From: a virus | IMG/VR virus record: IMGVR_UViG_3300044648_000206 | Span: 1-64,000 of that record | Reading direction: 5' to 3' (one strand) | Length of the DNA stretch: 64,000 nt | Part shown: positions 10,984 through 25,431 of the stretch, piece after piece | Layout: each line of letters begins with the position of its first letter | Numbering within the stretch: the first letter of the stretch is position 1 | Made by a program: the position numbers and the translations under genes | The notes under the pieces: generated by a model | What the model was told of the DNA's origin: nothing | The model's input: the letters and a program-made list of their open reading frames with translations, nothing else | Databases searched by the model: none

Positions 10984-11098
10984 GTCGGAGCAACGTGACC
11001 GAGAGCAAGCACCGGACGTGACAATGGTCCGAAGTGACTACGGGTGGCGGGACTTTAGCCCTGAGTAGGCTCGGCCTGAACCGGGGCAACATGGGAAA

Positions 11099-11155
11099 GG
11101 CCCGGCCAGATGGGGTGCGCTGGACGCCTGAGGCGTCTCACCATCTGGCCGGGCC
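11099..11155 (-). terminator. Strong hairpin, probable leftward terminator
   Basis: Perfect 15-bp arms GGCCCGGCCAGATGG (11099-11113) and CCATCTGGCCGGGCC (11141-11155) enclose a second perfect hairpin GACGCCTGAGGCGTC (11123-11137). On the minus strand the stem is followed by TTTCCC, and on the plus strand by CAATGC, so leftward termination is more likely. It lies about 115 nt downstream of a promoter-like sequence, and upstream of the helicase gene. Confidence 0.7.
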
Positions 11156-11220
11156 CAATGCCTGGCTCTCCAGGTACCAACCACGGGAGCCGAGCTGACA
11201 TCCCCGGCAGGGATGCGGTG

Positions 11221-11249
11221 AGTATGTACCACCCACAGCCTGTGGACAA
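11221..11249 (-). promoter_or_regulatory. Possible leftward promoter
   Basis: On the minus strand TTGTCC (11249-11244) and CATACT (11226-11221) are separated by exactly 17 bp; each hexamer matches consensus at four of six positions. The -35 hexamer overlaps a DnaA box. It would produce a short transcript ending at the hairpin at 11155-11099 or, if read through, the helicase operon. Confidence 0.4.
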
Positions 11250-11656: not shown

Positions 11657-11685
11657 TTGACCTTGGTCAACTTTTCGCCTACAAT
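11657..11685 (+). promoter_or_regulatory. Rightward sigma70-type promoter P1
   Basis: TTGACC (11657-11662) and TACAAT (11680-11685) are separated by exactly 17 bp, close to consensus for a vegetative sigma factor. The spacer end and -10 region (CAACTTTTCGC then TACAATGGA) and the first transcribed bases (CACGCGGG.AGA.CTATG.CCG) are repeated at a second promoter at 18176. It should drive the rightward block beginning at 11795. Confidence 0.85.
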
Positions 11686-11728
11686 GGACTCACGCGGGCA
11701 GAGCTATGTCCGCACACAGGTTGAGGAG

Positions 11729-11794: not shown

Positions 11795-12655
11795 ATGTCA
11801 GGAAAGCTCCCCAAGCTCCCCCAACTCCCTGTCACCACCTGGGAGTGGATCAGCCCGGCAATCGCTGCCGAGATGCTGACTCACAACACGATGAACCGAC
11901 CGATCATCGACTCGGCCGTCGCAGAGTGGGTCAGAGAGATGGAGAGTGGTAACTGGGTGCCCACGCACCAGGGCATCGCCTTCGACGTCTCCGGTGTGCT
12001 TCTGGACGGTCAGCACCGTCTCGCTGCCATCGTCAGGTCCGGCAGAACCGTGCTGATGCAGGTGACCAGGGGACTGCCGCCGGAGGTCATGCCCACCATC
12101 GACTCGGGGCGCAAGCGCACCTCCGGGCAGATTCTGGCAATGGCCGGCGTCAAGGACAGCAACCTCATCGCCGGCATCGTCAAGGTGGTGCTCTGCTACC
12201 GGGAGACGGTGCTGACCGGTGGCGACGTGCAGAACTTCACGGCGCTACTGGGGCGTAGCCGGACAGCCCGGGAGATTCAAGACGCCGCGGGCAAGATGGA
12301 GGGCATCGAGATCATCTCCACGCCGGCGCGCCGAATGAGTCGGGCCGCTGCTCTGCAGAGCCCGGCCGCTGTCGGCGCTGCGCTGTACCAGTGCTTCCTG
12401 GCAAACGCACTGACCACCGAGCAGTTCGTCGAAGGCATCGTCGAAGGATCTGAGCTCAGGTCCGGCGATGCTCGTCTGACCATGCGCAACCGCGCTCTGA
12501 GCGGCAACCTCGGGCAGAAGCGCGGCGGTAGCGCGACCCAGGCCTACTCGTTCGGCTTGGTGATGGGTGCGTGGCGCGCCTTCCACAGTGGCAAGTCCTG
12601 GCACAAGGCGCAGGTGCCGACGAACCTGTTGCAGATCGGACCGATCAACGTGTAA
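11795..12655 (+). CDS. DGQHR / ParB-like domain protein (286 aa)
   Basis: Residues around 65-90 (HQGIAFDVSGVLLDGQHRLA) carry the DGQHR signature of the ParB/DndB-like nucleotide-binding fold that is common in actinophage early regions. The remainder is helical (LLGRSRTAREIQDAAGKME, TTEQFVEGIVEG). The biochemical role in phages is not established; relatives act in DNA phosphorothioation control (DndB) or partition (ParB). The ATG at 11795 is preceded by GGAAGGGACCG, the extended ribosome site shared by many genes here, so I prefer it over an in-frame ATG at 11771 that falls in the leader hairpin tail. First gene of the rightward block. Confidence 0.75.
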   Translation: MSGKLPKLPQLPVTTWEWISPAIAAEMLTHNTMNRPIIDSAVAEWVREMESGNWVPTHQGIAFDVSGVLLDGQHRLAAIVRSGRTVLMQVTRGLPPEVMPTIDSGRKRTSGQILAMAGVKDSNLIAGIVKVVLCYRETVLTGGDVQNFTALLGRSRTAREIQDAAGKMEGIEIISTPARRMSRAAALQSPAAVGAALYQCFLANALTTEQFVEGIVEGSELRSGDARLTMRNRALSGNLGQKRGGSATQAYSFGLVMGAWRAFHSGKSWHKAQVPTNLLQIGPINV

Positions 12656-12677
12656 CCAACCAGAAAGAGGGACCGCT

Positions 12678-13205
12678 ATGCAGGAGCAACAGGCACTACC
12701 CCGGGACGCCGATGGCACGCTCATCACGAGCGCCATCTTCGGCGAGGACTGGGTCGTCGAAGTCGAGTACAACACCGATCACGACGGGCGCGTGATCAAC
12801 CCCGAGCTGGAGGACTACCCGCGCACCGTGCACGGGGGCTTCTACAGCAAGGAAGAGGCCGACGAGTGGGCTGAGGGGTTCTGCCCGGACGACACCGACA
12901 TCAACGAGGTGCGCGTCATCCCCCTCAACCTCGTCCGTCCGCGACCGAGCAAGGGGACTGACATGATCTACGTCCTGCTGACCGACACGAACGACGGCAG
13001 CGCGCTCATTGCCTGCCCCACTCCGGAAGCAGCCGACAGCGTCGGCGCGGCCGCCATCCTGAACGACGGCGGCGTCAGCGCCTGGCTGGTCCCGGAATCA
13101 GCGGTGATCGACCACGAGAAGGTCACCGAGATCCTCAAGCAGGGAGGCCGCATCGGAGACATCGCGGCTGCCCGCCTACCAGAACAGGGGACAGCCCGTG
13201 ACTGA
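12678..13205 (+). CDS. Hypothetical protein with internal restart (175 aa)
   Basis: ATG at 12678 is preceded by AAAGAGGGACCG. The N-terminal half (ITSAIFGEDWVVEVEYNTDH then HGGFYSKEEADEWAEGFCPD) resembles a small beta-alpha domain. An in-frame ATG at 12963 has AAGGGGACTGAC in front of it, the exact leader found before other genes in this block, and opens MIYVLLTDTNDGSALIACPT, a compact second domain of 80 residues. The gene could make both a full-length and a short product, or be a recent fusion of two genes. The family is unknown. Confidence 0.75.
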   Translation: MQEQQALPRDADGTLITSAIFGEDWVVEVEYNTDHDGRVINPELEDYPRTVHGGFYSKEEADEWAEGFCPDDTDINEVRVIPLNLVRPRPSKGTDMIYVLLTDTNDGSALIACPTPEAADSVGAAAILNDGGVSAWLVPESAVIDHEKVTEILKQGGRIGDIAAARLPEQGTARD

Positions 13206-13644
13206 CGAAGGACCCGTCAACCCCCTGCTGGCGCTGGCGCTGACCAGCAGCCGCGAGCTCGACGCGATGGTTGAGCTGCACGGCAATGCCGGCGCAGCGG
13301 TGTTCGCCCAGCTGCGGATGCACCTCGGTCAGCAGTTCACCGATGACCAGATCTGGGACTTCTTGACCGACACCGCCGAGATCGCTCTCAAGAAGATCGT
13401 CGAGGTACCGGAGAACGCCCCTCTGGAAGCCGTCCAGTCAGCCTGGATGATCGCCCTGCGGGCCACCCTGGCCATGACCGTGGTGACCGGCGCCAAGGCC
13501 GCCAGGGCTGGTCTGGCGGCCTCTGACGAGGTCCTGGCGCACAACATCGCCGAGGCGCTCGAGCGCAACAGCCCGGTCGCCTTGGTGCTGGGGGAGGCCG
13601 AGCGCAAGGTCATCCGCGAAGCCATCGCGGAGGCCCGGCCATGA
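13198..13644 (+). CDS. Hypothetical helical protein (148 aa)
   Basis: GTG start at 13198 overlaps the previous stop by 8 nt. The protein is almost all helical (LLALALTSSRELDAMVELHG, DDQIWDFLTDTAEIALKKIV, AKAARAGLAASDEVLAHNIA). No family recognised. The stop overlaps the lipoprotein start as ATGA, so it is coupled with it. Confidence 0.75.
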   Translation: MTDEGPVNPLLALALTSSRELDAMVELHGNAGAAVFAQLRMHLGQQFTDDQIWDFLTDTAEIALKKIVEVPENAPLEAVQSAWMIALRATLAMTVVTGAKAARAGLAASDEVLAHNIAEALERNSPVALVLGEAERKVIREAIAEARP

Positions 13645-13940
13645 CGATCTTCAACATCTGTCTGCGGGCCACCACGCTGTCCGCAATCAGCCTGTTCGTG
13701 GTGCTGCTGCTCGGCGGCTGCTCCAGCGGTCCCTCCGAGGCTGAGTGCGCGGAGGCCAAGGCGATCGCCGCCGAGTACATCACCAACGTCACCTCGCTGA
13801 TCGGCGAGGAGGGCGTGGACATAGAGAAGGTGGCCGACCAGCAGTACGACCTGGCGGCCTTGACGGTGAAGGGCTGGCCGGACTGCTTCGACGCCAAGGA
13901 CCGGCGCTGGGCCAACCGACAGCTGAGAGGGAGATCATGA
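13641..13940 (+). CDS. Putative lipoprotein (99 aa)
   Basis: A hydrophobic signal (TTLSAISLFVVLLLGGC) ends in a lipobox LLGGC at residues 23-27, so the mature protein is probably anchored by Cys27. The exported domain is acidic with paired cysteines (EAECAEAK and PDCFDAKD) that could form a disulfide. It is the second lipoprotein of the phage; a surface role such as exclusion of other phages is possible but not shown. It overlaps both neighbours by 4 nt. Confidence 0.8.
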   Translation: MTIFNICLRATTLSAISLFVVLLLGGCSSGPSEAECAEAKAIAAEYITNVTSLIGEEGVDIEKVADQQYDLAALTVKGWPDCFDAKDRRWANRQLRGRS

Positions 13941-14233
13941 CCAAGCCCGGGTTCATGCGTCGTTGGGAGCTCGACGCGATGATGATGACTCCCCGCCAAC
14001 TGCACCGGGGGCAGACGAAGACCCTCTTCTGGATGTTCTTCTCTGCTCTCGGTGCTTTCACGTGCGCGCTCTACATCCAGCACTACGCCTGGTGGCCGGT
14101 CTTCGGGGCCTCCAGCATGGCGACCGTCATGCTGAGCAACTTCGTCCGGTTCATCGTGCTCGACAACGAGATGGAGCGCCGCAACAGGGTCTCCCACGTC
14201 CAGGCTGACGCGCGTCGGCCTGACCGCTGGTAG
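13937..14233 (+). CDS. Membrane protein with two helices (98 aa)
   Basis: After a 30-residue basic cytoplasmic start (MTKPGFMRRWELDAMMMTPR) two hydrophobic segments follow (LFWMFFSALGAFTCALYI and WWPVFGASSMATVMLSNFV), then a basic tail (MERRNRVSHVQADARRPDRW). This fits a two-pass membrane protein with both ends inside. ATG at 13937 overlaps the lipoprotein stop. The function is unknown. Confidence 0.75.
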   Translation: MTKPGFMRRWELDAMMMTPRQLHRGQTKTLFWMFFSALGAFTCALYIQHYAWWPVFGASSMATVMLSNFVRFIVLDNEMERRNRVSHVQADARRPDRW

Positions 14234-14267
14234 ACCAACCCAACCCCAACAAGAAGGGACCGCTCAG

Positions 14268-14654
14268 ATGGAGGTCGAGAAGACCGGGGCACCGGCTCCG
14301 GCAGAGAAGAAGTCGTGGTGGGCTCGAGGCGTGGACAAGGTCGACATCACGCCCCAGGTCATCCGCGACGACGTCATGTTCACCACCGTCCGCTTCCGCG
14401 AGGGCTACAACCAGTCCGAGGTGGACGACTTCCTTGACCGCTGCGCCGACAAGATGGAGGCGGTCATGAACGAGAACAACGCGATGAAGGTGATGCTGCA
14501 CCGCCTGGGCATCAACGTGGAGCAGGCGATGCTGGGACTATCCCAGCCCGAGTCGCTCGCCGACCCGGCCGAGCTGCGCACCCTGGGCCGGCACGCCGCA
14601 CCCAGCCCCGCCGCCGAGGTGCCCAAGCTCACCCTGCCTGGGGACCAGTCATGA
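14268..14654 (+). CDS. DivIVA-like domain protein (128 aa)
   Basis: Residues 26-70 (ITPQVIRDDVMFTTVRFREG, then YNQSEVDDFLDRCADKMEAV) match the N-terminal lipid-binding domain of DivIVA/Wag31, including the characteristic RGYN.xEVDxFLD pattern (here REGYNQSEVDDFLD). DivIVA marks curved membrane and directs polar growth in actinobacteria. The phage copy has the head domain and only a short coiled coil, lacking the long oligomerising tail, so it could poison or redirect host polar growth. ATG at 14268 follows AAGAAGGGACCGCTCAG. That effect is inference; the domain match is good. Confidence 0.75.
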   Translation: MEVEKTGAPAPAEKKSWWARGVDKVDITPQVIRDDVMFTTVRFREGYNQSEVDDFLDRCADKMEAVMNENNAMKVMLHRLGINVEQAMLGLSQPESLADPAELRTLGRHAAPSPAAEVPKLTLPGDQS

Positions 14655-14953
14655 AGGCCTCGCAGGCTATGACGGGCGTCGAGGTCCTCGACCGGGCCTC
14701 TCTCCGGGTGCGGAACTGGAAGGTGGCCCGCACCATCGTTGGCTGGGCGGTGCTGCTGGTGCCGGCCGGGAGTTACCTCCTGGTCTGGCTGACCACCGGC
14801 TACAAGATCAGTTGGTACAACGTCGCGCTGGCGTGGGTCATGCTCTACACGACCTACGTCCTCGTCGACCTGGGGCTGCAGCGGGCGATCAAGAAGCACC
14901 CGCTGTACTACCTGGTGGCGCTCCGCCGGGAGTTCGGCGTAACCGACCAATGA
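14651..14953 (+). CDS. Membrane protein with two helices (100 aa)
   Basis: Two hydrophobic stretches (IVGWAVLLVPAGSYLLVWL and YNVALAWVMLYTTYVLVDLG) flank a short TTGYKISW loop. Both termini are hydrophilic. ATG overlaps the stop of the DivIVA-like gene as ATGA, and its own stop overlaps the next start, so this membrane protein is probably made with the DivIVA-like product. The function is unknown. Confidence 0.75.
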   Translation: MKASQAMTGVEVLDRASLRVRNWKVARTIVGWAVLLVPAGSYLLVWLTTGYKISWYNVALAWVMLYTTYVLVDLGLQRAIKKHPLYYLVALRREFGVTDQ

Positions 14954-15216
14954 GGAGCGTCCTGGTCAGCGCGGAGCTGGCGCTGGTCTGCCCGTACTGC
15001 TCGGCGCAGAACACCATCGCCGAGGTGGAGCGGGCGCACCGCTACAACACCGTGCACGAGGCCGATCGGCGCCCGGACGGCTCACTGGCTGTCCAGGTGT
15101 CGATCGGCACCGCGGACTACTTCCGCCACCTCGAGCACATCTGCACCAAGTGCGGAGCCAAGGTCGGCTGGCCGCCCAGGGGCGAGAAGAACATCGAGAT
15201 CAACTACACGGAATGA
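14950..15216 (+). CDS. Zinc-ribbon protein (88 aa)
   Basis: CPYC (residues 15-18) and CTKC (residues 70-73) form a classical four-cysteine zinc ribbon with a 50-residue insert (AEVERAHRYNTVHEADRRPD...). ATG at 14950 overlaps the previous stop. Ribbons like this are seen in proteins that contact nucleic acid or RNA polymerase; no family is recognised. Confidence 0.75.
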   Translation: MRSVLVSAELALVCPYCSAQNTIAEVERAHRYNTVHEADRRPDGSLAVQVSIGTADYFRHLEHICTKCGAKVGWPPRGEKNIEINYTE

Positions 15217-15225
15217 GGGACTGAC

Positions 15226-15867
15226 GTGACCCAAGCACTGACCACCCGCGAGATCCTCGAGCAGACGCTGAGCTACTTCCAGCCGGTCCGCTCGAACGTG
15301 ATACTCGAGGCCGGCGAGCGTCCGATCGTCGACGTGCCGTGGACCAAGAACACCTGGTTCGACGGCCCGGAGAAGGACGACGACGACGACGGCACTTGGT
15401 ACCCGGGCAAGGCCGAGGAGATCACCCAGGCCTGCTCGATGGGCGCCATGATCCTGGCCGCCCACCTGGAGCTGTCCTGGGCGTCGAGCACCCAGGAGGA
15501 GTGGCTGCACCTGTTCAAGAACGACCCCAACTTCGCCCGGGCCGTGGTACTGCTCAGCCTGGCGATCCGCAAGATCAACCCGGAGTGGGCGCCGATGTAC
15601 GACGACCTCGACGTGCCGACGTGGCAGGAGTGGACCTACAGCCTCGCCTACGGCTACAGCACGGCGACGTTCGCCGGCAAGAGCGTCCGGCTCGACCCGG
15701 AGGTCTACACGGCGCTCTACCAGCGGGTGCTGCATGACCTGCCGGCCGCCGCGTTCGCCAAGGACCTGGTGATCCGGTGGAACGACGACGACGACCGGAC
15801 CTTCCCCGAGGTCCACGAGATGTTCACCCACGCCATCAAGATGGCCATCGACGAGGAGGCCGCATGA
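15226..15867 (+). CDS. Hypothetical protein (213 aa)
   Basis: GTG start preceded by GAGGGACTGAC, the leader shared with other genes of this block. The product has tryptophan-rich, acidic N-terminal region (VPWTKNTWFDGPEKDDDDDG), then mainly helices (MGAMILAAHLELSWASSTQE, RAVVLLSLAIRKINPEW, DPEVYTALYQRVLHDL). No domain is recognised. Confidence 0.75.
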   Translation: MTQALTTREILEQTLSYFQPVRSNVILEAGERPIVDVPWTKNTWFDGPEKDDDDDGTWYPGKAEEITQACSMGAMILAAHLELSWASSTQEEWLHLFKNDPNFARAVVLLSLAIRKINPEWAPMYDDLDVPTWQEWTYSLAYGYSTATFAGKSVRLDPEVYTALYQRVLHDLPAAAFAKDLVIRWNDDDDRTFPEVHEMFTHAIKMAIDEEAA

Positions 15868-16199
15868 GGTCCACCAAGGAGATCGAGCAGGAGATCCTCC
15901 GACTGCAGAAGGAGCTGGAGGAGGCGCGCAACGCCCGGCCGGTCGAGCCGGACGCTGACCCGGCGGTGATCTTCTTTCAGAAGACGTTCTCCAAGAACGG
16001 CAGCCGGGTGAAGCAGGTCTACAGCTACACGGCGGTCAAGGGCGGGGACATGTGGTCGATCACCGGCAACAGCCCCGGCCGCAACCCCAACCCGAAGACC
16101 TGGGACGACCTGGTGGACTTCATCTGCCAGGGCGAGAAGGACACCCCGCAGGTGTGGCTCGCCAGCGAGCTCACGCCGCTCGACTTCGAGAAAGGGTAG
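15864..16199 (+). CDS. Hypothetical protein with N-terminal coiled coil (111 aa)
   Basis: The first 30 residues (MRSTKEIEQEILRLQKELEE) form a short coiled coil, followed by a small alpha/beta domain (KQVYSYTAVKGGDMWSITG, TWDDLVDFICQGEKD). ATG at 15864 overlaps the previous stop. No family is recognised. Confidence 0.7.
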   Translation: MRSTKEIEQEILRLQKELEEARNARPVEPDADPAVIFFQKTFSKNGSRVKQVYSYTAVKGGDMWSITGNSPGRNPNPKTWDDLVDFICQGEKDTPQVWLASELTPLDFEKG

Positions 16200-16206
16200 A
16201 TCGCAC

Positions 16207-16617
16207 GTGCCTCCAGCCCGACGCAAGCAGAAGAGCGGTCGCTCCGGCATCCCCAACGGAGCGACCCGAGACCGACAGGTCTCCAAGCAGTACCGCGAGC
16301 GCAAGCACAACGAGAGGCGCGCTGAGCGGCTGGAGGAGGTCCGTGACCAGCAGCGGCGGCTTGACGCGCGCATCCGCGCCGAGCAGGCTGCCGCTGCTGT
16401 CACGGAGAAGACGGAGGCCGCGCCGGTCGCCGTCGAGAAGCCCGACCCGCACCAGGCCGAGCTGGCCGAGCTGCGGCAGAACATGGAGAAGCGCGCCTTG
16501 TGGTCCCTCGGCGAGGCGCGCAACTTGATCAGACAGGGCTACTCACTCGAGGGCACTGTGCGCCGAACAGGCTGGAGCCCCGAGGATCTGGCCGATGTGG
16601 AGGTTGGTGTGTGGTGA
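16207..16617 (+). CDS. Basic coiled-coil protein (136 aa)
   Basis: The N-terminal 70 residues are extremely basic (MPPARRKQKSGRSGIPNGAT, RDRQVSKQYRERKHNERRAE), and are followed by an Arg/Glu coiled coil and a helical C-terminus (LGEARNLIRQGYSLEGTVRR then TGWSPEDLADV) that resembles a small DNA-binding helix-turn-helix. GTG start at 16207 follows GAAAGGGTAGATCGCAC. Nucleic-acid binding is likely by charge; nothing else is recognised. Confidence 0.7.
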   Translation: MPPARRKQKSGRSGIPNGATRDRQVSKQYRERKHNERRAERLEEVRDQQRRLDARIRAEQAAAAVTEKTEAAPVAVEKPDPHQAELAELRQNMEKRALWSLGEARNLIRQGYSLEGTVRRTGWSPEDLADVEVGVW

Positions 16618-17159
16618 CGGCGCAAGCTGCCGATGGACCGGGACAATTTCACTCCATCCCCCCGGAGCAGACCTTCGGGTGGTGGAACGGCGTCGAAGAC
16701 GCCATGGACAACTTCGGACTGACGCATGAGAACGTGCTGAGCATCGTCCATGGGCCTGAGTCGATCCGCTGGGCCGAGCGTCCACCTGGTCACGACGAGT
16801 GGCCGACCGAGAAGCGCCAGCGGGGTGACGTGCAGGTGGTCATCACCTGGCCGCCCGGGGAGCGCCCGATCATCTGGGCGGTCTACGTGCTGTCCAAGCT
16901 GGACCCCGGGCGCAGTCACGCGACCGGATCGGTGGGCGGTGCCACCGGGGCATCGCAGAACCCGACCTCGGTCCGGGAGATCAAGCGCCGACTGGTCGCC
17001 CGAGGCTTCACGATCGAGCCCGGCGGCAAGGGCGACCGGGTGATGTGGCAGGGAGACTTCTTCTGGCTCCTGCACACCACCCCGGGCGAGTACCGTTCGG
17101 TGCCCAACGTCTGGTCGGCGATCAAGCGGAAGGCCATGACCCGAGGAGTGGAGTTGTAA
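16614..17159 (+). CDS. Protein with C-terminal HicA-like domain (181 aa)
   Basis: The C-terminal 60 residues (SVREIKRRLVARGFTIEPGG then KGDRVMWQGDFFWLLHTTPG) resemble HicA, a small RNA-cleaving toxin with a double-stranded RNA-binding fold. The usual catalytic His in a GSH motif is not present; here the position reads GKGDRV. The N-terminal 100 residues (NVLSIVHGPESIRWAERP, GDVQVVITWPPGERPIIWAV) form a separate beta-rich domain. GTG overlaps the upstream stop as GTGA. No HicB-like antitoxin is adjacent. It may be an RNA-binding derivative of HicA. Confidence 0.6.
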   Translation: MTAQAADGPGQFHSIPPEQTFGWWNGVEDAMDNFGLTHENVLSIVHGPESIRWAERPPGHDEWPTEKRQRGDVQVVITWPPGERPIIWAVYVLSKLDPGRSHATGSVGGATGASQNPTSVREIKRRLVARGFTIEPGGKGDRVMWQGDFFWLLHTTPGEYRSVPNVWSAIKRKAMTRGVEL

Positions 17160-17459
17160 GTGATCAGTTTCCAGGCGAAGGTCGAGTCCTCGCCCAGTCC
17201 GTTCTCTCGGCACTGCCGGGTGCACATCTACTCGATGGCGACGACGGGGTCGGCCTACCTGGGGACACTGCTGATGCCGGACGCCGAGGCCGAGGCGTTC
17301 GTCGAGTTCATCAACCAAGCGACTCTGGAAAGGACTGACATTGGCCGGGAGCAGCTACTACGACCTGCCACACGTGACGCCCCAGCTGCCGCCGAAGAAC
17401 CTGAGCGAACAGGAGTTCCGGGCCTGGGAGCGCCGGAGCGCACAGATCACGCTGGCTGA
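17160..17459 (+). CDS. Hypothetical protein overlapping next gene (99 aa)
   Basis: GTG at 17160 immediately follows the previous TAA. The first 60 codons (VISFQAKVESSPSPFSRHCR, TLLMPDAEAEAFVEFINQAT) look coding. The last 40 lie under the next gene and are low in complexity (DAPAAAEEPERTGVPGLGAP). The next gene starts with a good TTG and ribosome site at 17341 inside this frame. Either the two genes overlap by 119 nt, or the sequence here carries a frameshift. Confidence 0.5.
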   Translation: MISFQAKVESSPSPFSRHCRVHIYSMATTGSAYLGTLLMPDAEAEAFVEFINQATLERTDIGREQLLRPATRDAPAAAEEPERTGVPGLGAPERTDHAG

Positions 17460-17625
17460 GCTGGCCGGCAGTCCCGGTGAGGTGGACCGGGAGGCCCTGC
17501 TCGAGACGCTGGAGGCGCTGGGCTTCATCGACACCCCGCCACCGACGCTGCCGGCCCACTGGAAGAAGAAGACCGGCGGCATCGCCCCGGACGCGCCACG
17601 CACCGCTCGGCGCGACCGGCCATAG
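17341..17625 (+). CDS. Hypothetical protein (94 aa)
   Basis: TTG start at 17341 is preceded by CTGGAAAGGACTGACA, one of the clearest examples of the shared leader in this block, which is why it is preferred despite overlapping the preceding frame. The product is mainly helical (LSEQEFRAWERRSAQITLAE, EALLETLEALGF) with a basic proline-rich end. It is followed by a strong terminator. The family is unknown. Confidence 0.75.
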   Translation: MAGSSYYDLPHVTPQLPPKNLSEQEFRAWERRSAQITLAELAGSPGEVDREALLETLEALGFIDTPPPTLPAHWKKKTGGIAPDAPRTARRDRP

Positions 17626-17632
17626 ACGCAGG

Positions 17633-17680
17633 AGCCCCCGGGGTGGTGCTTAGCGGTCCCTCCCCCGGGGGCTTCTGCTT
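17633..17680 (+). terminator. Rho-independent terminator
   Basis: Perfect 11-bp arms AGCCCCCGGGG (17633-17643) and CCCCGGGGGCT (17663-17673) followed by TCTGCTT. It closes the gene run that began at promoter P1, just before gene 17703 and promoter P2. Confidence 0.8.
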
Positions 17681-17702
17681 GTCCGCAGAGAGGAGGTGAG
17701 AG

Positions 17703-18179
17703 ATGTGGGGTGACTACGGACCCCAGTACGACGTCACCGACAACGAGTACCTGGCCGAGATCAGCACGGTCTCCCGGGACATCGCCGAGGACGTCATGCT
17801 CGAGGAGTACGCGAAGCAGAACGTGATGCGGCGGTGGCTCTTCGACGTCATCACCGCCTGCGCTTGGGGCTACGAGCTGCATGAGGAGTGCGGCGGTCCT
17901 GGGCAGCCTGAGTGCCCGTTCTGCGTGCACTGGACCGGGCCGGTGGTCAAGGTCCGGGCCACCGCCCGGGCGGCCAAGCGGATGATCGCCGAGATCGCCG
18001 AGAGCGAGGATCTCGATCCCTTCGACGTCATCAACAACGAGGACCCGGAGGTGTTCGCGCGCCACGTCCTTGTCTCCCAGGCCTTGGTCGAGGAGCTGTC
18101 GGGGGCGGCCGCGGACTACGCCAAGGAGATCCAGCACAAGCGCACACTGTGGGCGAAGGAGCTCGAGGGGCTCGATTGA
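17703..18179 (+). CDS. Hypothetical protein (158 aa)
   Basis: A strong ribosome site (GAGGAGGTGAGAG) precedes the ATG at 17703. The protein has a CPFC knuckle with a second cysteine pair nearby (ELHEECGGPGQPECPFCVHW), suggesting one zinc site, within a mostly helical acidic protein. It lies between a terminator and promoter P2, whose -35 hexamer overlaps its 3' end. No family is recognised. Confidence 0.75.
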   Translation: MWGDYGPQYDVTDNEYLAEISTVSRDIAEDVMLEEYAKQNVMRRWLFDVITACAWGYELHEECGGPGQPECPFCVHWTGPVVKVRATARAAKRMIAEIAESEDLDPFDVINNEDPEVFARHVLVSQALVEELSGAAADYAKEIQHKRTLWAKELEGLD

Positions 18180-18204
18180 CTCTCGACAACTTTTCGCTTA
18201 CAAT
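18176..18204 (+). promoter_or_regulatory. Rightward sigma70-type promoter P2
   Basis: TTGACT (18176-18181) and TACAAT (18199-18204) are 17 bp apart. The spacer end, -10 and initial transcribed region are nearly the same as P1: CAACTTTTCGC, TACAATGGA, then CACGCGGG.AGA.CTATG.CCG. The duplicated block is about 45 bp long and includes bases downstream of the -10, implying a conserved function for the early transcript as well as the promoter. Confidence 0.85.
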
Positions 18205-18300
18205 GGAGGCACGCGGGTAGATCTATGCCCGTTGGTAGCCCGGTTGCAGGGCGTGGAACATGCTTCCACGAGGTGACTGGCCGGACTGCCTCCCCACTCT

Positions 18301-18392
18301 CCCGGTGTCGTCCGTCATCCCCCGTCAGGCGGCACCGGGGCTCTACGGCCCCTCAGCGCGGTCACCCCCGTTACTGCGCTGAGGGGCTCTTT
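18301..18392 (+). terminator. Leader with tandem hairpins; second is terminator-like
   Basis: Between P2 and its first gene there are two stem-loops. CCCGGTG (18301-18307) pairs with CACCGGG near 18333, and perfect 12-bp arms GCCCCTCAGCGC (18348-18359) and GCGCTGAGGGGC (18376-18387) are followed by TCTTTC. The arrangement parallels the P1 leader and looks like transcription attenuation. About 210 nt of leader lie between the -10 and the ATG, and no protein gene is seen in it. Confidence 0.65.
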
Positions 18393-18413
18393 CATGCCCG
18401 GAGGGAGGGCACC

Positions 18414-18611
18414 ATGAAGCAAGGACTGCACCACGTCACTGGCTACCTGGCCTTGTTCGTGGTGCTTCTGCTGTTCCTGGGGCCGATCTGGGCTTTCCTG
18501 ATCGGCTTCTTCGGCGTGCTGCTCGGTCCGATCTGGATCGGGCTCTTGCTCTGGTTCACCGGTCGGGCCATGCTGGTCGACCTATGGGGAGCCATCACAC
18601 GCCGCCTCTAG
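18414..18611 (+). CDS. Small membrane protein (65 aa)
   Basis: The product is almost entirely hydrophobic with two membrane spans (YLALFVVLLLFLGPIWAFLI and FGVLLGPIWIGLLLWFTG), internal GPIW repeats, and a basic C-terminus. ATG at 18414 follows CGGAGGGAGGGCACC. It is the first gene behind promoter P2. Holin-like size and topology are noted, but a holin is already present in the late block; the function is unknown. Confidence 0.75.
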   Translation: MKQGLHHVTGYLALFVVLLLFLGPIWAFLIGFFGVLLGPIWIGLLLWFTGRAMLVDLWGAITRRL

Positions 18612-18669
18612 CTACGGGGGCTCACCGCGTCGGTTTCACCCCTGACGCCGGCACGGTGAGTTCCCGTTG

Positions 18670-18735
18670 GGCCCGTCCCAGCCGTCTCCCGGTCCGCCGG
18701 GTGAGATCCAGCGGCTGGGGCGGGCCTCCTGCTGT
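18670..18735 (+). terminator. Rho-independent terminator
   Basis: Arms GGCCCGTCCCAGCCG (18670-18684) and CGGCTGGGGCGGGCC (18712-18726), 15 bp with one wobble, enclose an inner CCCGG/CCGGG helix and are followed by TCCTGCTGTC. It separates the small membrane gene from the next gene. Confidence 0.75.
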
Positions 18736-18768
18736 CATCAGTCAGGGGACCCACAGAAAGGACTGACA

Positions 18769-18978
18769 ATGGTCGGCTCGCTGACTGTGCTCAGGTCGGG
18801 TGAGGACACCCGCACCTGGGACACCGCTCAGCCGGACTCCGTCGAGGAGGTGCGCGCCAAGTTCGACGAGATCGTCGGCGCTGGTGGCACCGCTCTCGCC
18901 GGTGACGGCACCCGTCTCGACAAGTTCGACGAGACGCAGCCCGAGATCACCGTCCTCCCGCAGTACCAGGGCGGCTGA
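18769..18978 (+). CDS. Hypothetical acidic protein (69 aa)
   Basis: ATG at 18769 is preceded by CAGAAAGGACTGACA, the shared leader. The product (MVGSLTVLRSGEDTRTWD, then VEEVRAKFDEIVGAGGTAL) looks like a small beta-alpha-beta unit of the ubiquitin-like or multiubiquitin type seen in small phage proteins, but this resemblance is weak. It stands alone between two hairpins, like a separately dosed transcript. Confidence 0.7.
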   Translation: MVGSLTVLRSGEDTRTWDTAQPDSVEEVRAKFDEIVGAGGTALAGDGTRLDKFDETQPEITVLPQYQGG

Positions 18979-18987
18979 TCGTTCCGT

Positions 18988-19041
18988 GTGACCAGTGCCG
19001 CCCCGGGGCCATCTGCCCCAGTCCAGGCCTCGGGGCGGCAC
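18988..19041 (+). terminator. Strong stem-loop without U-tract
   Basis: GTGCCGCCCCGGGG (18995-19008) pairs with CCTCGGGGCGGCAC (19028-19041), and the outer GTGAC (18988-18992) can pair with GTCAC just beyond. It is a very stable helix but lacks a T tail, so it may protect or isolate mRNA ends rather than terminate. Confidence 0.55.
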
Positions 19042-19061
19042 GTCACGGAGAGGGGGTTGCA

Positions 19062-19499
19062 ATGTTCCGATCATCTGCGCGGGACAGCTGGACCGCGCTG
19101 GACGACGTGGTCATCCCGCAGCTACGGAAGCTGCTTGGTGACCGGTTCCCGCTCGAGGAAGAGATCATTCAGATCTCGTGGGACAACGACCGGATGGAGC
19201 GCACGCTCTACTCGGTGCCGGTGACGAGCCTGCAGTCCGGCACCGTCTGGCGGGTGCTCTGCCACGGCGGGATCAGCAACAACCTGCGGGTCGAGGCCCG
19301 GGGGAGATTCCGCGTGGCCAAGAAGGGCTCGCTCTGGCAGCTGAACGTGGGCGACCGGATGTGCTCGCAGCCAAGGGTCTGGCACGACGAGACCCCTCGG
19401 ACCGGCTTCCGCATGGAGGACCACCTGGCGCGGTTCTACGCCGCCCAGGTCTTCGGACTGTGGGCAGCCGAGGACAAGCTGCTGGCGGTGGGAGAGTGA
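19062..19499 (+). CDS. Hypothetical protein (145 aa)
   Basis: ATG at 19062 follows GGAGAGGGGGTTGCA. The product mixes helix (WTALDDVVIPQLRKLLGDRF) with a beta-rich middle (TLYSVPVTSLQSGTVWRVLC, VEARGRFRVAKKGSLWQLN). No domain is recognised. The TGA overlaps the next GTG. Confidence 0.75.
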   Translation: MFRSSARDSWTALDDVVIPQLRKLLGDRFPLEEEIIQISWDNDRMERTLYSVPVTSLQSGTVWRVLCHGGISNNLRVEARGRFRVAKKGSLWQLNVGDRMCSQPRVWHDETPRTGFRMEDHLARFYAAQVFGLWAAEDKLLAVGE

Positions 19500-19852
19500 A
19501 GCGCCTACTGGACTACCTCAGCCCAGAGGAGGCCGCGGGTGTCCTGCCGCCCAGACGCCACGCGACGTGGCCGTACGAGGGCCACATCCGGCTCGCGAGC
19601 GTGAGCACCGGCAACGTCTGGGACCTCAAGCTCGGCCCGTACTACGACGGCAACATCCAGGCCGTCGACATCAAGCAGCGAGTGCGGGCCCGGGACGGCT
19701 GGGTCGACGACGGGCACTGGGTCTGCGTCGGGGTGGTGACTGACCCGCAGTACCTGTTCAGTCGGCCGTCTGACTTCGAGCTGTCTTACATCGCCCAGTA
19801 CCTGGCCCTCAAGTTCGACGAGAAGAACTTCATCGGCAGGGGGTACCTGTGA
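19496..19852 (+). CDS. Hypothetical protein (118 aa)
   Basis: GTG at 19496 overlaps the previous TGA as GTGA. The protein is beta-rich (HIRLASVSTGNVWDLKLG, VDDGHWVCVGVVTDPQY) with a helical end (FELSYIAQYLALKFDEK). No family is recognised; it is coupled to both neighbours. Confidence 0.75.
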   Translation: MKRLLDYLSPEEAAGVLPPRRHATWPYEGHIRLASVSTGNVWDLKLGPYYDGNIQAVDIKQRVRARDGWVDDGHWVCVGVVTDPQYLFSRPSDFELSYIAQYLALKFDEKNFIGRGYL

Positions 19853-20169
19853 CCGAGCACATCGACAGTGGGCCGAGCGAGGAGTTTCCCGACCGGCCCG
19901 ACCACCCGCACTTCCGGCTCCTGGCCAACCTGGCACAGGACTTGGACGGCGACACCGGGGCCCGAGCCCCTGGTCCGGAGGCCTTCTTCGAGGCCGAGAA
20001 GCTGGACGAGGCCTCGGTGTCCTACATGGCGGCCCAGCGCACCAACCGGGCCATCATGGCGGCCATCCAGCTGGGGATCTCGAGCCCCGAGGTCATCATC
20101 CAGGCGGCGGTGATCGACGGCTTCGCCCTGGGCTACCTGATGGCCCTGAACCGCCCGGACCTCCCGTGA
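19849..20169 (+). CDS. Hypothetical protein (106 aa)
   Basis: The product is acidic at the N-terminus and helical at the C-terminus (AAQRTNRAIMAAIQLGISSP, IIQAAVIDGFALGYLMALNR). GTG at 19849 overlaps the preceding stop. The C-terminal helix pair might bind a partner, but no family is recognised. Confidence 0.7.
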   Translation: MTEHIDSGPSEEFPDRPDHPHFRLLANLAQDLDGDTGARAPGPEAFFEAEKLDEASVSYMAAQRTNRAIMAAIQLGISSPEVIIQAAVIDGFALGYLMALNRPDLP

Positions 20170-20372
20170 CGTGGGGAGAGTCCTTGGAGGACGCCCGGAA
20201 GCGGCGCACACTCCAGGTACGACGCCTGACCCGCGAGCTACACATGGCCGAAGCCAGGCTCGCGCACGTCGAGTACATGATCCAGCAGCGCGACCGCCAG
20301 GCCCAGGAGGGCAAGCACCGGCGGCCGCAGCCTCAGCTGGTCACAGACACGGCTCCCCCAGGAAGGAGTTAG
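20166..20372 (+). CDS. Basic coiled-coil protein (68 aa)
   Basis: GTG at 20166 overlaps the upstream stop. The sequence VTWGESLEDARKRRTLQVRR then LTRELHMAEARLAHVEYMIQ is a single long charged helix with heptad spacing, followed by a disordered proline-rich end. No family is recognised. An 87-base leader with two short hairpins (CCCAG/CTGGG and GCCGCC/GGCGGC) follows before the next gene. Confidence 0.65.
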   Translation: MTWGESLEDARKRRTLQVRRLTRELHMAEARLAHVEYMIQQRDRQAQEGKHRRPQPQLVTDTAPPGRS

Positions 20373-20459
20373 GGAGGAGTCGAGCCCAGCCAATCTGGGC
20401 AGCCGCCGCAGTAGAGGCGGCCACTTCGATGAGAACGCAACCAACAGGAGAGTGACATC

Positions 20460-21179
20460 ATGAGCGCAACCACTGCGCCCCCAGAGGACAAGGTCGCCGG
20501 CGCTGCAGCTGACGCCACCGAGTCCTTCATCAAGGTGATCGGCCGGAAGATCCGCGCCGGCGCCACCCGCACCAAGCTGTTCGCCATCCGCGTCTGGACC
20601 GGCGGTCGGCGCAACACTGCCCGGGGAGCCAAGGCTTCCTGGCACGGCATCAAGGTCGCAGCGAGGTGGGTCGCCTTCGGCGTCACCTGGGTGCTGATGG
20701 CCATCGGGCTGGCGGTCTACACGATCTTCCGCTGGCTCGGCATCGTGGTGATCAAGCTGCTGGACCTGCTCCTGCTGGTCATCGTCGCGGTGCTCACCGG
20801 CGTCGCGTTCGTGCTCGAGTACGCGGTCTACTTCGTGGTCCGGGTTGCCCTGTTCGTCGGGCTGCTGCTCGGATCGCTCTACTTCCTGCTCCGGGACGGC
20901 AAGACTGCGGTCAAGACCGACTGGGAGCTGTTCTGGGTCGGCCTCAAGCCGCGGAACTGGAAGTACATGACTCTGGGGACCATCGCCGAGATGGTGGTCA
21001 CCAGCAAGGCGGCTCCGCCACGGCGCACGGCGGAGTCCAACGGTCGGGGCTCTCGTCCTGCGGCGGCCACGCGCACGGCGCGGAACCAGGCGGGCAAGGG
21101 GAGGCCCACGCCGAGGCGGTCCACCCGGCGGAGCTCGAAGCTGCCTGGTGCCCGCGTCCGAGGCGCAGCAACTGCGTAG
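20460..21179 (+). CDS. Multi-pass membrane protein with basic tails (239 aa)
   Basis: A basic amphipathic N-terminus (residues 25-70, including RKIRAGATRTKLFAIRVW) leads into a hydrophobic core of about 85 residues (VAFGVTWVLMAIGLAVYTIF, LLLLVIVAVLTGVAFVLEYA, VALFVGLLLGSLYFLL) with three or four spans, and then a very basic Ser/Arg/Pro tail (GRPTPRRSTRRSSKLPG). It may anchor DNA or another phage component to the membrane. ATG at 20460 lies after AACAGGAGAGTGACATC. A strong terminator follows. The family is unknown. Confidence 0.75.
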   Translation: MSATTAPPEDKVAGAAADATESFIKVIGRKIRAGATRTKLFAIRVWTGGRRNTARGAKASWHGIKVAARWVAFGVTWVLMAIGLAVYTIFRWLGIVVIKLLDLLLLVIVAVLTGVAFVLEYAVYFVVRVALFVGLLLGSLYFLLRDGKTAVKTDWELFWVGLKPRNWKYMTLGTIAEMVVTSKAAPPRRTAESNGRGSRPAAATRTARNQAGKGRPTPRRSTRRSSKLPGARVRGAATA

Positions 21180-21198
21180 GCCCGACCGTTGATGACGG

Positions 21199-21243
21199 CC
21201 CAGCCCCCGGTAACCCGTCAGTCCGCCGGGGGCTGGGTCTCAT
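21199..21243 (+). terminator. Rho-independent terminator
   Basis: Perfect 12-bp arms CCCAGCCCCCGG (21199-21210) and CCGGGGGCTGGG (21226-21237), then TCTCAT. It closes the gene for the multi-pass membrane protein. Confidence 0.75.
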
Positions 21244-21283
21244 CGCGATTGGTGCGCCCACCATGACAGGAAGGAAGGACTCC

Positions 21284-21565
21284 TTGCCTGACAGTGCAGC
21301 GACCACTTCATCGAGACAGTTCGTTCGACTGTGGTCCAACAGCGTCCTGCTCCAGGCTCACGCCTCGCGGGACTCCAAGTTTCTGATAGTCCCGGTGCTC
21401 CGCAACAAGTCGATTGCGGGGTGGCGGGTCTACGAAACCTCGACCGGCCAACTCCTGGTTCCTGAGACTTCCGTGACCGGCGTACCCGAGGGGTACGCCG
21501 ATGGAGTCTGGGAACAGCTCTACCAGGCCAGGGATTGGATCACCACTCTCTACGGGAGGACGTGA
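21284..21565 (+). CDS. Hypothetical protein (93 aa)
   Basis: TTG at 21284 is directly behind GGAAGGAAGGACTCC and is preferred to an in-frame ATG at 21263 that has no ribosome site. The product is a small alpha/beta domain (SRQFVRLWSNSVLLQAHASR, FLIVPVLRNKSIAGWRVYET). It overlaps the next start by one base. The family is unknown. Confidence 0.65.
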   Translation: MPDSAATTSSRQFVRLWSNSVLLQAHASRDSKFLIVPVLRNKSIAGWRVYETSTGQLLVPETSVTGVPEGYADGVWEQLYQARDWITTLYGRT

Positions 21566-21903
21566 TGGCGCGCGTAGCGTTCGACGTCTCCCTGACCGAT
21601 CCCTCGGTGGAGTTTGAGGGGTGCACGGTCCGCAAGATCGAGTACGAGCACACCGCGACGACCAAGCGGGTGTGCATCGAGCTCGACACCCGAGAGGTGC
21701 CTGAGGGGCCGGACATCATCCTCCCCGAGGGCACCTGGACGGTGGTCGATCGGCAGGACGACGCACGAGCCGGTGCCGTCCTGCCGATCGTCGGCGAGTT
21801 CGCCACCAAGAGCGAGGCCGAGGCCGCGATCGTCGGCCTGGAGTACCTGGTGCCGACCGCGGTCAAGGAGGGCCGCTTCGGCATCGACAGCCCGGAGGAG
21901 TAG
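21565..21903 (+). CDS. Hypothetical protein (112 aa)
   Basis: ATG at 21565 follows GGGAGGACGTG. The product is beta-rich at first (MARVAFDVSLTDPSVEFEGC, KIEYEHTATTKRVCIELD) and ends in a helix (ATKSEAEAAIVGLEYLVPTA). No family is recognised. It is followed by a strong terminator. Confidence 0.7.
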   Translation: MARVAFDVSLTDPSVEFEGCTVRKIEYEHTATTKRVCIELDTREVPEGPDIILPEGTWTVVDRQDDARAGAVLPIVGEFATKSEAEAAIVGLEYLVPTAVKEGRFGIDSPEE

Positions 21904-21908
21904 ACATT

Positions 21909-21962
21909 GGCCCGGGTGGATCTCTTCGCGGAGGTTCACCCGGGCCGCTCTGCTTTCTGCTT
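21909..21962 (+). terminator. Rho-independent terminator
   Basis: Perfect 10-bp arms GGCCCGGGTG (21909-21918) and CACCCGGGCC (21937-21946) followed by GCTCTGCTTTCTGCTT. It has a clear T-rich tail and lies between two independent genes. Confidence 0.8.
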
Positions 21963-21998
21963 AGATTCTGCTGTCACCTCTGGAAAGGACCATGGACC

Positions 21999-22406
21999 GT
22001 GCCGATTGACGTACAAGCCGTCTTCGCTGATGCCTCCGACATGATCGACGGAGGCAGCCTCGGTGAAGACGTGGACTTCGACCATCGAGACCTGCTGCGC
22101 GAGGTCGCCGAGCTGATCTCGGAGGCGCTGGGCAACCTGCACGGCATCGGCGACGACCCGATGCAGAACGACGAGCTGCTCCGCACGGCCGTGACCGGGG
22201 TGGCGCTCAAGAGCTTCCTGGCCGGGAACCTGGCCGGGCTCGCCAGCTCCGGTGCCCCCGGCGGTGGCGAGAGCGGTGTGGTGGTCCGCTGCAGCCCCGG
22301 CGAGCTCGAGCAGATCGGGCTCGCTGCGATCCGGGACGGCGTGCTCACCTTCCACCTGGTCTCTGACATCGAGCCGCCCTCCGAGGACGACTCGGCAACT
22401 GACTGA
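21999..22406 (+). CDS. Hypothetical acidic protein (135 aa)
   Basis: GTG at 21999 is preceded by CTCTGGAAAGGACCATGGACC, sharing CTCTGGAAAGGAC with the leader of the gene at 17341. The product is acidic with helices (LLREVAELISEALGNLHGIG, GVALKSFLAGNLAGLAS) and a strand pair (SGVVVRCSPGELEQIGLAAI). No family is recognised. An 8-bp hairpin (CGGTCGGG 22432-22439 / CCCGACCG 22453-22460) follows. Confidence 0.75.
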   Translation: MPIDVQAVFADASDMIDGGSLGEDVDFDHRDLLREVAELISEALGNLHGIGDDPMQNDELLRTAVTGVALKSFLAGNLAGLASSGAPGGGESGVVVRCSPGELEQIGLAAIRDGVLTFHLVSDIEPPSEDDSATD

Positions 22407-22494
22407 CCCCTGCCCCTCCAGACGGGGGTGGCGGTCGGGCGGGTGCGAGGACCCCGACCGTCACTCCCAACCACCCCTGAACGGAGGAAGATCC

Positions 22495-22782
22495 TTGCGT
22501 GCGCTGATCCAACGGTTCGCTGCGGTCGTCATCGCCAAGCTGCGCCGCTTCGTCCAGTACTACACGGACGCCCATCGAGAGAGGGCTATGGAGCCGTGGG
22601 AGGAGAGCATCGCTCGAGCGTCATTGCTCTGGCTACTCGAACAGGTGACCAGCAGGTTCCATCGGTTCCCCTGGCTCAACCCGATGACAAGGGCGCACGT
22701 CCAGGAGGAGTTCGAGAAGATAGTCGTGATCCTGCGCTCGGACTGGGTGGCCGACATCCACCAGGACGGGGCCAGCGCGTGA
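22495..22782 (+). CDS. Hypothetical basic helical protein (95 aa)
   Basis: TTG at 22495 has GGAGGAAGATCC in front. The product is helical (RALIQRFAAVVIAKLRRFVQ, ARASLLWLLEQVTSRFHRF) and amphipathic at its N-terminus, which could associate with membrane. Its stop overlaps the next start. The family is unknown. Confidence 0.7.
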   Translation: MRALIQRFAAVVIAKLRRFVQYYTDAHRERAMEPWEESIARASLLWLLEQVTSRFHRFPWLNPMTRAHVQEEFEKIVVILRSDWVADIHQDGASA

Positions 22783-23012
22783 GCAGTAAGGAACCCCGGC
22801 CGGTGAGGTTTCACGACCTGCCGGCCGACTACTACCCCTTCGTGATCGAGTTCGTCGACGAGACCGAGGGCAAGGTGGTCCACACCGTCGAGGTGCCCGA
22901 CGCCAGCGCAGTCGCGATCCCGCGCCTGAGCAAGGAGCTGGGCGTGCCGATCGGCGTCCGGGTCACCTACGCCAACGGCAAGGTCATCTACGAGGGGGCT
23001 GCGTCGCCGTGA
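22779..23012 (+). CDS. Hypothetical protein (77 aa)
   Basis: GTG at 22779 overlaps the upstream stop. The product is a likely small beta fold (FVIEFVDETEGKVVHTVEVP, GVRVTYANGKVIYEGAA). It overlaps the next gene by 4 nt. The family is unknown. Confidence 0.7.
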   Translation: MSSKEPRPVRFHDLPADYYPFVIEFVDETEGKVVHTVEVPDASAVAIPRLSKELGVPIGVRVTYANGKVIYEGAASP

Positions 23013-23494
23013 TCAAGATGTGCCAGACATGCTTCCGAGCTCTGTTCGAGCTTCGGGACGCTGCGACCGGCCAGATCATCGGCTACGCGCACCACTCGGC
23101 TGACGAGACCATCTTCGCGAGAGAGGGGATGGCTCACCAGCCGATCGCCGTCGATCCTGACCGGCGCTTTCTGTTCCGGCGTTGCGACCTCTGCAACGTC
23201 CCGCTCAACCCGCAGATCCCAGTGATCAAGCTGCCGTGCCAGAGCTACCTGCGCCCAGACGGCCTGCTCTCGGACGGCGACTACGAGCTGTGCCAGACCG
23301 ACGCCGAGCTGGTGGCGGTCGGTCGCTGGGGCTTGCTGGGGGAGCGGGTGCACGCCAGCTGGCGCATGTTCCGTGACCCGCTGGACCACCCACCCACGTT
23401 CGACGAGGTGCTGACCTGGATGGGTGCGCTGCGCAACGCCGTGCTGGGTCCGCCTTACGAGGAGGAGCCATGGACCGCTACATCCCCAAGATGA
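23009..23494 (+). CDS. Hypothetical cysteine-containing protein (161 aa)
   Basis: Two cysteine pairs (CQTC at 5-8 and CDLC near 60) suggest a zinc site linking the N-terminal half; the rest is alpha/beta (YELCQTDAELVAVGRWGLLG, TFDEVLTWMGALRNAV). GTG at 23009 overlaps the previous stop. No family is recognised. Confidence 0.7.
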   Translation: MIKMCQTCFRALFELRDAATGQIIGYAHHSADETIFAREGMAHQPIAVDPDRRFLFRRCDLCNVPLNPQIPVIKLPCQSYLRPDGLLSDGDYELCQTDAELVAVGRWGLLGERVHASWRMFRDPLDHPPTFDEVLTWMGALRNAVLGPPYEEEPWTATSPR

Positions 23495-23652
23495 TGACCG
23501 GAGGACTCAAGCGTTGGGGCCTCTGGGACACGCAGGAAGGAGCCTGGTGGGAAGGCGAGTTTCCCACTGCCCAGTACGCCGCGGGCGTGCCCTACTGGAA
23601 GACCTCCAGGGCCGTCGTCGAGGCAGCTGTGGCGATCAACCGAGAGGACTGA
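23470..23652 (+). CDS. Small tryptophan-rich protein (60 aa)
   Basis: ATG at 23470 has GAGGAGGAGCC in front, and overlaps the previous gene by 25 nt. The 60 residues include five tryptophans (LKRWGLWDTQEGAWWEGEF, VPYWKTSR) and end in a helix (AVVEAAVAINRED). No family is recognised. Confidence 0.65.
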   Translation: MDRYIPKMMTGGLKRWGLWDTQEGAWWEGEFPTAQYAAGVPYWKTSRAVVEAAVAINRED

Positions 23653-23656
23653 CACC

Positions 23657-24829: not shown

Positions 24830-25089
24830 TGAAGGGCCCCGAGGGCTACGGCCGGTACAACGACGACCCGGACTTCGTGGGGTGCCCGCGTGCGAAGTCC
24901 GACATGACGCCCTGTGTGGCCCGTGACGGCTCGATGGCCGTCGTGGACACCGGGGAGTGCGTCGGCTGCGGTCGACGCCCTGGCGGCCTGCTGGACGAGC
25001 TCCTGCAGGCAACTGGGGAGCAGCACCCCGGCGGGCAGGACGCGGACGCCCTCCGTGACCTGGTGCTGGTCGTTACGGAGCCGTCATGA
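24829..25089 (+). CDS. Small cysteine-containing protein (86 aa)
   Basis: ATG at 24829 overlaps the RtcB stop. The product has four Cys (VGCPRAKSDMTPCVARDGSM and GECVGCGRR) consistent with a zinc site similar to short phage Zn-finger proteins. The C-terminal part is helical (GGLLDELLQATGEQH). Tight coupling to RtcB suggests it may be a partner, but there is no direct evidence. Confidence 0.7.
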   Translation: MKGPEGYGRYNDDPDFVGCPRAKSDMTPCVARDGSMAVVDTGECVGCGRRPGGLLDELLQATGEQHPGGQDADALRDLVLVVTEPS

Positions 25090-25217
25090 CCGTCTGCTAC
25101 CACTCACCGGACCGTCAGCACAGGTGGGAGCCGTTGAGGCGTGGCGACGATCCGCCCCGCAAGGTCTGCTCCGCTTGCGGTGAGGTCGCTGCCCAGCCCA
25201 CGAAGGGAGGGAGCTAA
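25086..25217 (+). CDS. Mini zinc-finger protein (43 aa)
   Basis: Forty-three codons begin MTVCYHSPDRQHRWEPLRRG and end with VCSACGEVAAQPTKGGS. The C..H..H and C..C pairs form a plausible zinc finger. ATG overlaps the previous stop as ATGA, and its TAA overlaps the next ATG (TAATG), so it is tightly packed between two genes. Confidence 0.65.
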   Translation: MTVCYHSPDRQHRWEPLRRGDDPPRKVCSACGEVAAQPTKGGS

Positions 25218-25405
25218 TGCCGGTCTCGATCATGGACGTCGAGTTCGTCAAGGTAGGGGAGACCAAGCACAACTACGTCTTCCGGCAGCCGAAGCACATC
25301 AAGACCAACCTGCACACGACCATCCTCTACATCAACAAGGCCCAGTTCCCAGACGGGCCTCCCGACCGGATCACCGCGGTGATCGAAGCTCGAACGAAGG
25401 GCTGA
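25217..25405 (+). CDS. Hypothetical protein (62 aa)
   Basis: ATG at 25217 overlaps the preceding TAA, with GAAGGGAGGGAGCT as ribosome site. The product (VEFVKVGETKHNYVFRQPKH, TTILYINKAQFPDGPPDR) looks like a small beta sheet. It is the last gene before a strong terminator. The family is unknown. Confidence 0.7.
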   Translation: MPVSIMDVEFVKVGETKHNYVFRQPKHIKTNLHTTILYINKAQFPDGPPDRITAVIEARTKG

Positions 25406-25431
25406 TACCAGCAACAGAAACCTGGCTCCAC

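Follow-up and report, generated by a model that had tools for sequence, protein, structure and literature searches.

Antitermination elements and terminator-rich early regions

To our knowledge, very few systems of cis-acting RNA antitermination have been described (put and EAR). The put element of phage HK022 antiterminates in cis without protein factors, and alterations of the beta' zinc-binding domain prevent its action. Copies of put, like those of the nut site of phage lambda, are similar within a genome and divergent between genomes. HK022 carries two put copies per genome that share sequence and lie beside early promoters, with two stem-loops at the transcript start (pairing in putL begins at +3) and read-through of intrinsic terminators as the outcome (PMC9378689). 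The conAn system of pLS20-type conjugative plasmids combines a large operon containing many internal intrinsic terminators with an RNA element at its start, and requires the protein ConAn1 (PMC8955417). For actinophages, PMC8355165 cites Ingham et al. 1995 on early-region terminators of phiC31. In the literature searched, we came across no report of an actinobacteriophage leader that acts in processive antitermination. We also know of no shared transcribed 5' hairpin at the early promoters of phiC31.

The locus analyzed here lies in a window of 64,000 nucleotides (the whole stretch of DNA studied) from a viral record in IMG/VR, and its leaders follow two promoters, P1 and P2. It resembles put in having two similar copies near early promoters and two predicted stem-loops at the transcript start, read-through here being only proposed. 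It differs in that the second stem-loop resembles a terminator, in that the P2 leader is long whereas put is compact (~70 nt), and in that the phages are probably actinobacterial, with no relationship seen between the sequences. The ~70-nt form with two stem-loops occurs at P1 and in the related contigs L014, L013, G003 and G009 (copy b), whereas P2, G007 (copy b) and G008 have long leaders; Rfam returned no family for the leaders at the gathering score, a relaxed threshold adding sub-threshold hairpin matches only.

As in lambda N/nut, divergent early operons each have a promoter, a hairpin and an early terminator, and the copies are similar within a genome and different between relatives; unlike nut, the hairpin stands at the very 5' end. 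The hairpin is present, and no boxA was seen by eye in the leaders. Family searches of 15 operon genes found no antiterminator, N proteins being small and divergent. The terminator-rich large operon with an RNA element at its start recalls conAn, but the searches turned up neither a ConAn1-like protein nor a first-gene product common to the relatives, and we do not assign the locus to that system. Hairpin terminators in an actinophage early region are reportedly also a feature of phiC31. In our best reading, the element would work like HK022 put or lambda nut, a likeness in layout and not family membership.

An uncultivated phage with a single plus-strand operon

The record (IMGVR_UViG_3300044648_000206) is 72,264 bases long and holds the whole window. 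It encodes a DnaE-type polymerase, DnaB, primase, portal and tape measure, and these replication and virion genes place it among the tailed phages. Its nearest named relatives at the protein level are mostly Gordonia, Arthrobacter and Brevibacterium phages, and we regard it as an uncultivated phage whose hosts are probably actinobacteria. According to a codon-usage gene map, all genes are on the - strand except for one + strand operon, which P1 opens and to which P2 is internal:

11795..28933 (+), operon under the control of P1 and P2, ~33 predicted genes
11795-12655 (+), first gene of the operon, phrog_5931, ParB-like

The early operon also encodes a full-length RtcB RNA ligase (23657-24829, +; PF01139, E 1.9e-112) and a small protein, part of which resembles DivIVA (14268-14654, +; PF05103, E 3e-7) and which may influence how an actinobacterial host grows at its poles or divides. 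Long near-perfect hairpins lie within its predicted coding sequence at 15061-15108 and 21747-21790. On the other strand, 4425-4814 (-) matches phrog_478, a recombination directionality factor.

Duplicated promoter-hairpin-terminator modules

An earlier note on this DNA proposed promoters at 11657 and 18176 that share about 45 bp of spacer, -10 and first transcribed bases, each followed by a stem-loop with a U-rich tail. Both promoters are present there, and both stem-loops were recovered, with modest U-rich tails:

11657..11685 (+), P1 promoter, TTGACC-N17-TACAAT, sigma70-type, opening the + strand operon
11694..11713 (+), P1 5'-terminal hairpin, GCGGGCA-GAGCUA-UGUCCGC, from folding, pairing kept versus P2
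11722..11771 (+), P1 leader terminator-like hairpin, core 11729-11764, tail GTTTCTC
18176..18204 (+), P2 promoter, TTGACT-N17-TACAAT, sigma70-type
18213..18232 (+), P2 5'-terminal hairpin, GCGGGUA-GAUCUA-UGCCCGU, from folding, pairing kept versus P1
18347..18388 (+), P2 leader terminator hairpin, tail CTCTTTC

The order is the same at both sites: promoter, 5' hairpin, strong hairpin with a U-containing tail, ribosome-binding site, gene. P1 and P2 are the only sites in the whole 72-kb record with a sigma70-like score of at least 10/12. The -35 of P2 overlaps the TGA stop of the preceding gene (17703-18179), and its terminator hairpin lies directly 5' of the ribosome-binding site and the ATG at 18414. 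The terminator tail of P1 is able to pair with an upstream GAGGAG. The P1 -35 lies within an inverted repeat, TTGACC-TT-GGTCAA (11657-11670), which is absent from P2 and is a possible P1-only operator.

From the -35 to the end of the hairpin, 46 of 57 bases are identical (11657-11713 versus 18176-18232; 39/46 in the core), and in the 100-base flanks identity falls to the chance level of 28-29%. The note also suggested looking for the leader elsewhere in the genome. The next-best match to the 46-base core across the record is 26/46, and the 21-base spacer/-10 pattern, allowing up to three mismatches, occurs just twice against zero expected from shuffles; a weaker third set, P3, is found on the - strand. 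The note had overlooked this probable set and the conservation across the family.

The transcribed part common to P1 and P2 is an imperfect inverted repeat that folds into a 7-bp hairpin, and three of the seven stem pairs differ between the copies with pairing retained in all three. A DNA operator is, with leaky leader terminators, one of the two main rivals to antitermination: promoter and inverted repeat would form a binding site for a phage repressor or activator, with separate terminators, and actinophage phiC31 offers an analogue in its repeated operators. The hairpin is indeed an imperfect dyad, the P1 -35 lies inside the palindrome TTGACCTTGGTCAA, and the -10 region belongs to a conserved CATACTTAAGNCAT in L013, G003, G008 and G009. 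The conserved spacer between P1 and P2 likewise points to some DNA-level constraint or a recent duplication, which counts against antitermination. However, stem changes to G-U pairs keep RNA pairing and reduce DNA symmetry, no copies occur away from promoters, and the dyad sequence varies among relatives while the hairpin persists. We consider an operator to be quite unlikely.

A candidate third module on the minus strand

Divergent from P1, a similar set precedes dnaB:

11221..11249 (-), P3 candidate promoter for the divergent dnaB operon, TTGTCC-17-CATACT, the only site in the region scoring 8/12
11198..11216 (-), P3 5'-terminal hairpin, GCAUCCCU-GCC-GGGGAUGU, 8 bp, beginning four bases past the promoter
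11098..11156 (-), P3 leader terminator-like hairpin, GGCCCGGCCAGATGG..CCATCTGGCCGGGCC-TTTCCC, large, ahead of dnaB

The P3 module probably starts the dnaB operon, and is less certain than P1 and P2 because its promoter match is just 8/12. If the set is real, both divergent operons would open with promoter, hairpin and terminator. A scan for stems with U-runs found no internal terminators on the P3-driven strand of the record, which counts against antitermination.

The layout recurs in relatives

Searches of IMG/VR with DnaE and DnaB retrieved relatives, uncultivated contigs throughout, with 37-45% identical DnaB and 40-69% GC. The succession of sigma70-type promoter, 5' hairpin, intrinsic terminator, ribosome-binding site and gene is kept at the dnaB-divergent operon in G007 (two copies), L014, L013, G003, G009 (two copies) and G008; G010 has one copy 5.7 kb from dnaB. 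The top-scoring sigma70 sites of the G000, G003, G007 and G010 records are, or include, these modules. In G007 (40% GC), TTGACA-17-TATAAT diverges from dnaB, and downstream of it lie GGGAAAGUUAUGUC and a hairpin with GCGCUUUUUGCG at its end; the second copy, 6.7 kb further, has a 5' hairpin AAGGUA..UAUGCCUU and, ahead of the following gene, a terminator AAAUACCCG..CGGGUAUUUUU. In both G007 and the window, the gene that precedes the inner copy ends in a TGA stop overlapping the -35 of that copy. A comparison of the small hydrophobic proteins encoded after P2 in the window and in G007 did not show homology. In L014, an AGACAU..AUGUCU hairpin is directly followed by GGUCACC-AAAUC-GGUGGCC-UUUUUU, and in L013 and G003 a hairpin GCAUCGGG..UGAUGC or CGAUGC has a terminator directly after it.

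Module copies are alike within a genome and diverge between genomes. Two observations count against antitermination: the form of the hairpin varies (G007 copy a keeps UUAUGUC with a shifted stem, and the G008 hairpin is weak), and no shared protein factor was found among the relatives. The searches made also found no first-gene protein common to them.

Outside this group, no clear module was found beside dnaB in Gordonia phages Chidiebere, GMA6 and DalanDe or Brevibacterium phage Cantare, whose DnaB is 25-27% identical to that of the window, and no cultured carrier was found among the distant named relatives examined. A scan of genome contigs gave two remote MAG contigs only, and no DNA similarity to the P1 or P2 region was found in phage records. 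The five IMG/VR matches to the exact P1/P2 pattern are all unrelated sequences, and L062, the lone match among loci with DnaB at or below 35% identity, was judged spurious. The pattern CATACTTAAGNCATYG gave one additional GC-rich contig in IMG/VR, L112; two other matches (L110 and L111) look like chance.

Several of these contigs have features of their own. The 5.7-kb L112 carries two promoter-like copies of CATACTTAAGTCATCGGGC before genes (1391-1330 and 465-400, -), with no terminator between copies and genes and no DnaB relative on the contig. One L013 leader (module A, 2366-2456, -), behind one of three tandem promoters, holds a predicted tRNA-Ser; the matching stretch of G003 is similar, but no tRNA was called. 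Upstream of dnaB, G008 and G009 share AAGAGCGGGCAGATACTG in an otherwise unlike non-coding leader, followed by a terminator-like CACCCC..GGGGTG hairpin.

Structure of the leaders

Compared with dinucleotide shuffles, the initial 40 nt of the eleven leaders give better folds (Fisher combined p 1.4e-5, a value that is too optimistic because some leaders are interrelated and some were found via a sequence motif in that stretch). L013 and G003 share three leader modules each (A, B, C), and comparison of their alifold pairs showed none broken; the consistent changes were one-sided in 10 cases and two-sided in 2, against 80 changed columns among the 201 unpaired ones (~40%). Adding P1 versus P2 brings the totals to 0 broken, 13 one-sided and 2 two-sided, in structures that were predicted from the same sequences, which favors them. 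The retention of pairing through stem changes, both between P1 and P2 and between relatives, supports an RNA signal.

In nine of the eleven leaders scored, the terminator-stem probability is 0.93-1.00 when the 5' part is included and 0.91-1.00 when it is left out. The 5' hairpin and the terminator fold thus coexist, whereas a classical attenuator or riboswitch expression platform requires mutually exclusive folds; we rejected that assignment. More broadly, attenuation would have the leader terminator governed by an alternative fold or by translation of a leader peptide that starts at the ATG within UAUGUC. This ATG is present in P1, P2, G007 and L014, and in L014 the frame that it opens continues across the terminator as far as the start codon that follows, on which it ends, but L013, G003, G008 and G010 have no ATG at that place, the peptides are not conserved, and no alternative fold competes with the terminator. 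With neither ATG nor frame conserved, a leader peptide is disfavored, and we regard attenuation as the least likely of the explanations weighed.

The compact two-hairpin leaders of L013, G003 and L014 could also suggest that these promoters chiefly make a trans-acting RNA of 70-190 nt that ends at the leader terminator, with gene expression by read-through being secondary. Weak, sub-threshold likeness to actinobacterial sRNA terminators is consistent with such a product, but leader length and sequence vary widely among relatives, a ribosome-binding site and gene lie directly downstream, and the Rfam result names no family. A short RNA as the main product is very unlikely in our judgment.

Terminators inside the operons

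Across four records, the sense strand of the module-driven operons has 17 stem-plus-U-run sites in 40.9 kb, compared with 4 in 162.8 kb of other coding strands, a ~17-fold higher density (binomial p 3.6e-9, with operon boundaries fixed after the terminator list was seen). Most of the U-run terminators lie just 5' of a ribosome-binding site and start codon. The operon of the window contains the following, the last of them at its end:

17628..17678 (+), intergenic hairpin, tail CTTCTGCTTG
18614..18667 (+), intergenic hairpin
18995..19041 (+), intergenic hairpin
21197..21239 (+), intergenic hairpin
21908..21947 (+), intergenic terminator-like hairpin, tail CTCTGCTTTC
22424..22468 (+), intergenic hairpin
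25432..25464 (+), intergenic terminator-like hairpin, tail TTGTCGTTTC
29091..29126 (+), operon-end hairpin between convergent operons, tail CTTCTTCATG

Most terminators in this record have short or broken U-tracts, which counts against antitermination. Weak U-tracts have a precedent, since some of the phiC31 early-region hairpin terminators reportedly lack a poly-U tail (Ingham et al. 1995, cited in PMC8355165).

Because the operons are punctuated by strong terminators, ordinary transcription needs either leak or antitermination. Leak alone would mean that the terminators set an expression gradient or insulate the genes from stray transcription, and that the 5' hairpin merely guards the mRNA 5' end. 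The location just before ribosome-binding sites, the weakness of some U-tracts and a 5' hairpin that leaves the terminator fold untouched are all compatible with leak. It does not account for promoter, initial transcribed sequence and hairpin being kept together in several copies, or for a terminator placed immediately after the strongest promoters, and we consider it unlikely, if with a real chance of being right.

A putative promoter-proximal antitermination RNA

The reading that we favor, held tentatively and with nearly as much confidence as doubt, is that an RNA hairpin close to the promoter serves to load a processive antitermination complex. A signal that the elongating polymerase reads would fit a hairpin that is found at every entry promoter, leaves the terminator fold undisturbed and differs in sequence from one phage to another while being common to the copies of any one phage. 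The layout kept in distant relatives, as read from sequence, suggests an RNA signal for read-through of the many terminators of the operon. The earlier note proposed an RNA signal, for example for antitermination or processive-complex loading. The RNA part of this proposal is supported by the pairing-preserving changes, the recurrence in relatives and the internal terminators, and the conserved spacer leaves room for a function at the DNA level.

Under the proposed mechanism, P1, P2 and probably P3 would be early promoters whose first ~30 transcribed bases act in cis as an RNA hairpin. RNA polymerase would capture this hairpin near the promoter, either by itself or together with a factor from host or phage, and the hairpin-bearing polymerase would become resistant to intrinsic terminators. 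We infer where transcription begins, that it can terminate at these hairpins and that the 5' hairpin brings about read-through: polymerases from these promoters would pass the leader terminator and those between the early genes, and stray transcription would stop at them.

A further step, possible though doubtful, is that this is a new RNA-based processive antitermination element, set within the ~30 bases transcribed first from every early promoter in one clade of actinobacteriophages and needing no phage protein of its own, put-like and arisen outside the lambdoids. If true, the element would explain how early operons full of intrinsic terminators are expressed, and it would be compact, with a predicted readout, namely passage of polymerase through a terminator that lies tens of bases further on.
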